Origin: Desulfotignum sp.
GTDB taxonomy: Bacteria; Desulfobacterota; Desulfobacteria; Desulfobacterales; Desulfobacteraceae
Assembly: GCA_011389555.1 (NCBI GenBank)
Contig: JAABUD010000224.1
Coordinates: 1-34,351 of the forward strand
DNA length: 34,351 nucleotides
Direction of reading: 5' to 3'
Below the pieces are notes generated by a model. That model saw nothing but the letters and a program-made list of their open reading frames with translations. It searched no databases and was not told the DNA's origin. Positions within the stretch are counted from its first letter, which is position 1. The number at the start of each line of letters is the position of its first letter. Position numbers and translations under genes: made by a program. Shown here in pieces: positions 17,489-19,401 of this stretch.

Positions 17489-18106
17489 TCAATAATCGCA
17501 GATGGACGGATCCACGCTGGCCGGCACCCCTTCATACGGGGTCCATTTGTGGGATTTGTAGCTGTCCCCGTCCCGCATGTTTTTCAGGATCTCGATGCTG
17601 GTTTTGTAGCCCTTGTACATGCGGCACATCTCCATGGCCATGCCGCAGATCAGGGCCACGGCCTGGGCCATGTTGATGTCGTGGTGGGAAAATTCCCAGG
17701 GTTCGGCCGTGTAGACCCGCATGGCACCGATGATTTTGTTGCTGCTGATGATGGGAACCCCCAGCAGGGAGGCGATCCCTTCATTTTTCGCCTGTTCCGG
17801 ATATTCGATGCGCGGATCGTCCATGACATCAAAGATGGCAATGGGCACGGCATCTTTGGCCTCCCGGATGGTCTGCATGAAATGGATCGGGCCTTTGTTC
17901 AGGTATTCGTGGCTCAGGCCGGATGAGGCCACCAGTCCCAGCTCCCGGGTTTCCCGGTTGACCAGAAGCACGGAACATCCCTTGGCGTTGAACGCGGTTT
18001 TCACGCTTTCCGCCGTGATCCAGGCCACCTCTTCCGGGTCCTTGCACTGGGAAATGGCCGTGGTGAGTTTGACGATGGTGTCATAATACATGGCATGTTT
18101 TTCCAT
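17489..18106 (-). CDS. GAF domain protein
   Basis: The protein has 205 residues and a strong AAGGAGGGTGAA site before the ATG. One GAF domain fills residues about 15-165, with KGCSVLLVNRETRELGLVAS, then GIASLLGVPIISSNKIIGAMRVYT as the family core. A short C-terminal helix and tail (165-205) follow. There is no output domain, DNA-binding motif or membrane span, so it would sense a small ligand or redox state and act through a partner. Its stop lies 2 bp from the convergent helicase stop. A good promoter and a long leader of about 165 bases lie upstream. Confidence 0.88.
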   Translation of the reverse strand: MEKHAMYYDTIVKLTTAISQCKDPEEVAWITAESVKTAFNAKGCSVLLVNRETRELGLVASSGLSHEYLNKGPIHFMQTIREAKDAVPIAIFDVMDDPRIEYPEQAKNEGIASLLGVPIISSNKIIGAMRVYTAEPWEFSHHDINMAQAVALICGMAMEMCRMYKGYKTSIEILKNMRDGDSYKSHKWTPYEGVPASVDPSICDY

Positions 18107-18309: not shown

Positions 18310-18362
18310 GGGCTGATCGGTAGTATGCCGCCCCTGGTGGGGGGGGGTGCCATCAGCGACTA

Positions 18363-18554
18363 GTGTCGGGGGGTGTCAGGGGGTCGAATCCCATTCTGAC
18401 GAGGTTGCTACAGGCTGTTGGGCCTGGCGGAGCGTCAAGAACGGTGAACTGTTTGAGGACATACCTGCCCGCAGTTTTCACCGTTCAGCGCAGCCAGGCA
18501 CTACAGCCTGTGCAAACGCGGCAGAGGGTGAGCCCCCCTGACACCCCCCGACAC
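18363..18554. repeat. 192-bp imperfect palindrome with perfect 21-bp terminal arms
   Basis: Bases 18363-18383 (GTGTC, six G, TGTCA, five G) are the exact reverse complement of 18534-18554. Further complementary blocks lie inside in mirrored order: TTGC (18405) with GCAA (18512), ACAGGCTGT (18410) with ACAGCCTGT (18503), GCCTGGC (18422) with GCCAGGC (18493), GCG (18432) with CGC (18489), and AACGGTGAACTG (18440) with CAGTTTTCACCGTT (18472). The terminal loop is 18452-18471. An outer pair GGCTGATC (18311-18318) / GATCAGCC (18564-18571) also fits. The order and spacing support one long hairpin in RNA or extruded DNA. It could be a MITE-like mobile element, a structured non-coding RNA or a very large terminator; no target-site duplication or promoter was found. 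Confidence 0.85.
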
Positions 18555-18615
18555 GGGTCATTTGATCAGCCGGTATCCACAGCCAGGCACGTGTGGGGAA
18601 AGTTTGCCGGAGAGC

Positions 18616-19401
18616 TCACTTCACCCGGGCCGCGATATCGGCCAGGACCGGCCCGGCTTTTTCTTTGATCAACACCTGGCACCGGTTGTCATAAGGAGTA
18701 GGGGACAGGTTAATGATGGCTAAAAAAGCACCCGCATCCAGAGCATATTCAGGCATCAGTGCCGCCGGCTGGACCAGAAGGGTGGACCCCACCACGAGAA
18801 ACACGTCGCATTGCGATGACAGTTCGGCAGCCCGCCGGGTTTCCTTTTCCGGCATGGCCTGGCCAAAGGAGATGGTGTCCGGCTTGAGATATCCCCCGCA
18901 ATCGCACCGGGGGGCTTTGTCACCGGCCAGGATCCTCTGTTGTGCGGCATCCCAGGAAACCAGGGTGCGGCAGGACATGCACCGGACCCGCCGGGTGTTG
19001 CCGTGCAGTTCGATGATGTTGTCCTCCGGGATGCCCGAAGCCTGGTGAAGCCCGTCAATGTTCTGGGTGATCACCGCCGTGAGGTGTCCGGTTTCGTAAA
19101 GCTGTGCAATACTCATGTGACCCGCATTGGGCCGGGCGTTCTTCAATCCTTTTTCCATGTCCATGCGCATGTCCCAGTATTGAATCCTTGCTGTCTCGCT
19201 GGACATGAACGCATCAAAATACACCGGGGTGAATTTGTCCCACAGCCCGCCCTGGCTCCGGTAGTCCGGGATGCCGCTTTCCGTGGACATCCCGGCCCCG
19301 GTGAATACGATCACGCTGCGGGCCGTTGTGATTTTTTCGGCAATGATCCGGGTGTGGGCCTGGATCTCCGGGGTCAGGACCGGGGTGGTTTTTTTTGCCA
19401 T
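18616..19401 (-). CDS. Sir2-family NAD-dependent protein deacylase
   Basis: The protein has 261 residues. The NAD-binding motif TGAGMSTESGIPDYRS is at 34-49, TQNIDGLH at 112-119, and the catalytic His133 lies in ELHGN. The zinc knuckle is C141, C144, C166 and C168; the last pair is CxC rather than CxxC. It should remove acyl groups from lysines in the cytoplasm using NAD, producing nicotinamide and O-acyl-ADP-ribose. In short-chain acid users such enzymes often reactivate acyl-CoA synthetases, one of which lies at 32435-34336; a link is possible but not shown. The ATG overlaps the end of murJ by 28 bp and is preceded by AAGGAG, so the pair is probably co-transcribed. Confidence 0.92.
   Translation of the reverse strand: MAKKTTPVLTPEIQAHTRIIAEKITTARSVIVFTGAGMSTESGIPDYRSQGGLWDKFTPVYFDAFMSSETARIQYWDMRMDMEKGLKNARPNAGHMSIAQLYETGHLTAVITQNIDGLHQASGIPEDNIIELHGNTRRVRCMSCRTLVSWDAAQQRILAGDKAPRCDCGGYLKPDTISFGQAMPEKETRRAAELSSQCDVFLVVGSTLLVQPAALMPEYALDAGAFLAIINLSPTPYDNRCQVLIKEKAGPVLADIAARVK

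Follow-up and report, generated by a model that had tools for sequence, protein, structure and literature searches.

A multi-copy palindromic repeat with a conserved apex in Desulfotignum and related genomes

A long hairpin between two genes

The DNA analysed here, referred to as the window, is a stretch of 34,351 nucleotides from a draft genome of Desulfotignum sp. Between a GAF-domain gene (17489-18106, minus strand) and a Sir2 gene (18616-19401, minus strand) lies a palindrome (18363-18554) whose 21-base ends, an outer left arm (18363-18383) and an outer right arm (18534-18554), are exact reverse complements, as the first-pass annotation had stated. An inverted-repeat search with spacers of up to 400 found these arms to be the longest perfect inverted repeat of the window, at 21 bp, and the pair table agreed; the longest found in 20 dinucleotide shuffles of the window was 14. 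Predicted folding energies of the palindrome were -128.1 kcal/mol (z -10.8) for RNA and -74.6 (z -11.6) for DNA, and in each case 0 of 200 shuffles folded as well. The window holds no tRNA and no match to Rfam (release 15) at gathering, and a search of 13 loci at E values up to 1 returned only three weak, unrelated Rfam matches far below gathering.

The perfect arms lie where they had been placed, but the conserved element is longer than the 192 bp first assigned to it. Per-position conservation over 50 non-orthologous copies of the 69 aligned, together with the alignment of own-genome copies, reaches background level beyond 18353 and 18559, which bounds an element of about 207 bp (approximately 18353-18559, plus strand, TCAGCGACTAGTG ... 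CACGGGTC; aligned copies of 204-208 nt). The mirrored complementary blocks that had been described inside the arms are present: a strongly conserved block, GAATCCCATTCTG (18386-18398), pairs with CAGAGGGTGA of the other arm according to the alignment and the pair table, and further in lie an inner left arm (18410-18433), an inverted repeat that includes covarying helices 4 and 5, and an inner right arm (18488-18511), identified by inverted repeat and pair table. A covariance-model match delimits a 58-nt apical domain (18432-18489) that is common to other genera and families, and within it the apex core GAGGACATACCTGCCCGCAG (18455-18474) is nearly invariant in the copy alignment. The 20-base terminal loop originally described is located at the tip, but it is not a plain loop, since it contains a hairpin of 3 bp (AGG/CCT) that closes a loop of 5 nt and is flanked by asymmetric internal loops; this 20-base region is the most conserved part of the element in the 69-copy alignment. 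The palindrome had been said to contain no protein gene, which agrees with the copies: 43 of the 69 have no frame open across them and no ORF is common to all, and a protein-coding repeat was rejected. Immediately upstream of the element, at 18331-18349, the window carries a G-run and CCCCTGGTGGGGGG; a similar palindrome, CCCCCACC.GGGGGC, lies upstream of other copies and may be a companion repeat.

Copies, covariation and strand preference

When 18363-18554 was compared with its own genome by BLAST, the palindrome proved to be multi-copy, with 24 places including the window copy, some of them partial (a 25th row was the palindrome matching its own other strand). The family is present in all 13 genomes of the genus, and BLAST matches were found in 20 of 59 relative genomes, those 13 included; matches in other genera were often limited to the tip. 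Exact matches to the apex core occurred in 82 stretches, whose titles are mostly Desulfotignum, Desulfobacula and Desulfobacteraceae bins. The element had no match in plasmids and phages, and a generic apex with flanks from locus L057 had none in plasmids. The exact apex core occurred in 0 viral contigs, and a generic apex pattern in three, two of which have a clear surrounding hairpin. One Omnitrophota contig (L078) carries the exact 20-mer within a hairpin, the sole match of that genome (E 0.044); a single 20-mer is about the chance expectation for a collection of this size, and we do not claim it as a family member. A broader query from a distant relative (L165) matched 11 plasmid records, downstream of the apex only. 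The matching part, at 172-255 of that query, is a CTTTTCTTTTG...-type stretch found at up to 40 places each in plasmids of Paraburkholderia, Pseudoalteromonas, Aeromonas and Ilyobacter.

The element is also present in truncated forms, as half copies and as remnants of deletion. In four half copies (L023, L102, L104 and L121) the sequence starts at or beside CTGTTTGAGG, at CTGAGG in L023, and the left half is replaced by unrelated sequence; elsewhere (L006, about 1690-1740) the right end CCCCGGCACGGGTC stands twice in tandem. Five own-genome copies (L016, L017, L019, L021 and L022) lie at contig ends, and a practical consequence of such repeats is that they break assemblies.

From 253 profile matches, counted on both strands with duplicates removed, 69 full-length copies were picked by profile score and coverage and aligned. 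RNAalifold predicted 67 pairs, in 36 of which both sides had changed in at least one sequence, and 97.5% of the pair cells were paired. Double-change cells numbered 362, whereas shuffles gave 81.1 and slid controls 38-64; the structure had been taken from the same 69 sequences, which favours the real over the slid versions. In the outer helix, formed by the 21-bp arms and neighbouring bases, 18 of 25 pairs carried compensatory changes. The palindrome is thus no single-copy locus devoid of homologues and covarying pairs: with its 24 places, its relatives across the genus and its covariation, the data support a repeat with a maintained hairpin.

The two strands do not behave alike. G-U cells outnumbered A-C cells by 145 to 24 in the 69 copies, a count into which related sequences enter repeatedly and from which pairs with G-U as the commonest form were omitted; any G-U was present in 31 pairs and any A-C in 18. 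Furthermore, the plus strand folded better than the minus strand in 64 of 69 copies (mean -130.3 versus -120.9 kcal/mol). Because of the G-U excess and this better folding, we take folding to occur on the plus strand of the window, whether as RNA or single-stranded DNA. Helices that covary on a single strand agree with a structured RNA, the other possibility named in the first-pass annotation.

Many copies are old and have been kept at orthologous sites across species. Between the orthologous copies L001 and L026, identity is 88.9% across the element, against 79.3 and 78.0% in the flanks; six pairs have changed on both sides and four are broken. Over 21 orthologous comparisons, which are not independent, the element was more identical than every measured flank in only 12, and of the 140 changed pairs, 45 stayed paired through changes on both sides, 50 stayed paired through a single change, and 45 were broken. 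The orientation of 63 copies with respect to neighbouring genes, taken from simple ORF calls (in 14 of the 63 the overlap with a called ORF exceeds 60 nt), fell into four arrangements of 20, 18, 13 and 12, with no preference for a terminator or a leader position; for lack of a fixed side or direction, a cis-regulatory RNA was rejected as the main reading.

The apical domain outside the genus

A covariance model of the 58-nt apex, built from 17 sequences, matched 44 of 86 genomes of the family and 17 of 395 genomes of the phylum. Twelve of the latter, the own genome among them, were accepted on inspection. Four (G143, G175, G186 and G228) lack the motif and were read as chance matches, and these, together with an uninspected match in G304, were omitted from the apex alignment. 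The arms around the tip differ from group to group, yet they remain long hairpins. In 31 distinct apices from several families, aligned by fitting to the covariance model after exclusion of the five doubtful loci, 95.4% of cells were paired and 12 of 18 pairs showed double changes. Their common core consists of CTGTTTGA, a small hairpin, and GCAG or GAG, within a stem closed by GCGTTAAGAA and TTTAGC. A UUU-GA...GA pattern in many apex rows appears to resemble a kink turn.

Many apices were found in relative G028, whose assembly consists of two contigs (5.6 Mb). Of its 63 apex matches, 58 are strong and many have identical apices, and in the 16 copies fetched, near-identity extends over about 280 nt; given this number and near-identity, amplification in G028 looks recent. 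The 58 strong copies, the five weak ones being omitted, divided into 28 plus and 30 minus, with no replication-orientation bias on an assembly whose origin position was not located. Copies in G028 form mosaics with other repeat modules, with TTATA between modules, and in 14 of the 16 fetched copies TTATA(A/T) stands on both sides of the repeat plus its neighbouring module. At L245-L267 (about 1380-1740) modules joined at TTATA(A/T) resemble BIME-type mosaics, and small hairpins such as TCCGCCAGGACATGTGGG lie between TTCGTTGTG and TTATA.

Possible mobility, rival explanations and an insertion sequence at the apex

Small palindromic repeats are common in bacteria, and their functions and means of movement are usually guessed. 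The present element had been suggested to be a MITE or REP-like mobile element. That remains the best class for it, as a dispersed repeat from whose dispersal we infer mobility, but we found no clean empty site, no target duplication and no link to a Y1/RAYT gene. The flanks of the 69 copies share 5-8-mers no more than shuffled flanks do, in line with the target-site duplication reported as absent at the window copy. No clean empty site appeared in a search of 13 genomes of the genus with the flanks of L006 and L003: for L006 the left flank alone aligned, and among nine relatives with L003 matches, three retain the left end with about 180 bp missing, one has other sequence, and five align at the right flank only. 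We interpret the gap in the three relatives as the product of deletion between short G-runs, not as an empty site. The own genome, a 93.66% complete draft, contains no Y1_Tnp match and no RVT_1 match, and the latter sets aside a retron or group II intron. The apex model matched none of 20 Y1 loci of relatives, 12 of which had been chosen mainly for the longer ORF type (one of them a short fragment), and seven of the 44 apex-bearing genomes have no Y1 match, several of these seven being incomplete. At one Y1 locus (L191), BLAST matched other pieces of repeat, and only over short lengths; the region of a longer Y1 gene in G028 (L200) has short direct repeats of its own, GTAAGGTGTCCCCAGATCC, which do not resemble the long hairpin. 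The six partial matches retrieved as possible autonomous versions were truncated copies, and the partial matches examined for a parent insertion sequence with the same ends were remnants, in draft genomes that are incomplete.

Among known systems, the element resembles REP, BIME and REPIN sequences in being a multi-copy extragenic palindrome and, in G028, part of a module mosaic. It differs from the REP sequences associated with RAYT/TnpA_REP in its length, about 207 bp versus a REP unit described as 20-40 bp (PMC3733652), in having its conserved module at the tip and in the lack of a Y1 gene link (0 of 20 loci). It shares with ERIC/RU-1, YPAL/RU-2, NEMIS/Correia and RPE, as they are described in PMC2229807, a size of 100-200 bp, an intergenic location, a long stem-loop and the lack of a protein, and like YPAL it has no terminal TA (PMC2229807). 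Judged by those descriptions, it is set apart from ERIC, YPAL, NEMIS and RPE by its conserved apex, by arms that vary by genus and family and by the absence of a visible target duplication. Terminal inverted repeats and the lack of a protein agree with a MITE, whereas target-site duplication is missing from the 69 copies. A word-matching search of open-licence papers found no description of the element, and the excerpted account of strain HRM2 reports many repeats without describing this one (PMC2702500). The element, with neither an Rfam family nor an open-licence paper found for it, appears to be related to the small mobile bacterial palindromes and hitherto undescribed.

We give about an even chance to the reading that it belongs to the REP/MITE class of interspersed palindromic repeats, is non-autonomous, and is handled as a single strand that folds and is recognised by its apex. 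The plus strand, when single (RNA or ssDNA), would fold into one long hairpin, and a trans-acting protein would recognise mainly the apex (CUGUUUGA, a small hairpin, and CGCAG/CGAG) together with the hairpin base; such recognition would have let the repeat spread between genes and would keep the arms paired despite sequence drift. Dispersal (24 own places and the amplification in G028), covariation, strand bias, apex conservation and the absence of a gene-orientation bias favour this reading. Against it stand the missing mobilising enzyme, target duplication and clean empty site, the many old orthologous copies, the element exceeding every flank in just 12 of 21 comparisons, and 45 of 140 changed pairs being broken; a replication-orientation bias in G028 would have favoured ssDNA transposition, and its absence counts against. 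The old copies speak instead for a multi-copy structured or regulatory RNA, whose plus-strand hairpins would act in trans or be cut by RNase III, altering the life of neighbouring transcripts, with selection holding the copies. Retention at orthologous sites with compensatory changes in place, strand preference, covariation and an apex conserved across families all agree with such an RNA, but we consider it doubtful, as the 63 copies prefer no side or direction of genes, the 58 strong copies in G028 look like spread rather than a gene set, some copies are halves or remnants of deletion, and no Rfam family matches.

Dispersal and the perfect 21-bp ends could also be those of an ordinary double-stranded DNA MITE, whose terminal inverted repeats would be read by the transposase of a lost or unseen parent insertion sequence and whose hairpin would be a by-product. 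The TTATA(A/T) at both boundaries of 14 of 16 G028 copies could then be a target duplication; it also divides unrelated neighbouring modules, however, and so may be a module junction. We regard this explanation as unlikely given the G-U bias, the lack of duplication in the 69 genus copies and the conservation of the tip, which a terminal-repeat transposase does not read. Template-switch repair of imperfect palindromes is established, and a passive palindrome in which replication template-switching copies changes from arm to arm would show covariation in the absence of selection. Deletion between short repeats at the hairpin base in three relatives fits such a process, but it should treat both strands alike, while G-U exceeds A-C sixfold, and arm copying fails to explain why the unpaired tip and the asymmetric internal loops are the most conserved; this explanation is already disfavoured and we hold it to be very improbable.

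Returning to the folded strand recognised at its apex, we tentatively extend it, as a possibility short of probable, to a phylum-wide superfamily of mobile hairpins set by one RNA-like apical module rather than by ends or a transposase gene; a single conserved host protein would read that module, and the arms would evolve separately in every genus. The proposed module is CUGUUUGA, a variable small hairpin and GAG inside a stem closed by GCGUUAAGAA/UUUAGC. If true, the superfamily would parallel, in bacteria, the SINE-like parasitism of an RNA-binding protein. The conserved tip is cleanly separable from the drifting arms and provides a defined 58-nt bait for the recognising protein.

The apex is also the point at which an insertion sequence enters the repeat in relative G007 (S14.Bin031). 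A 95-bp query from the end of this IS found five places in G007, all five starting exactly after ...AAACT in the left half of the repeat. Five right junctions in the same assembly start with CTGTTTGAGG, and these were located via the apex itself and hence give no independent evidence of specificity. From the five left and five right junctions, the split point in those copies matches a CT at 18449-18450 (plus strand) of the window. Contigs stop 95 bp into the IS on the left and 67-69 bp on the right, so that it is known from its ends, in which no DEDD recombinase gene was seen. Close to its left end lies the 11-bp ATGAGAAGGCT, which recurs as its reverse complement close to the right end; CT is present at each junction. 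Subterminal inverted repeats of IS1111 elements are described as spanning 7-17 bp (PMC11208160), a range that includes the 11 bp of the G007 ends, and the CT may be compared with the CT core described for IS621 (PMC11208160); by its ends, the G007 IS thus appears to resemble IS1111/IS110 elements. Compared with IS110/IS1111 elements and their bridge RNA, it would be the inserter into the repeat and not the repeat itself. As a precise target, with five of five left junctions at one apex position, the element is again like REPs, which are known targets of insertion sequences (PMC1525189). Recognition of the apex would explain the use of this same point by the IS as a safe landing site. The IS is multi-copy at one exact apex position (L210-L214, L059, L066, L083 and L115).
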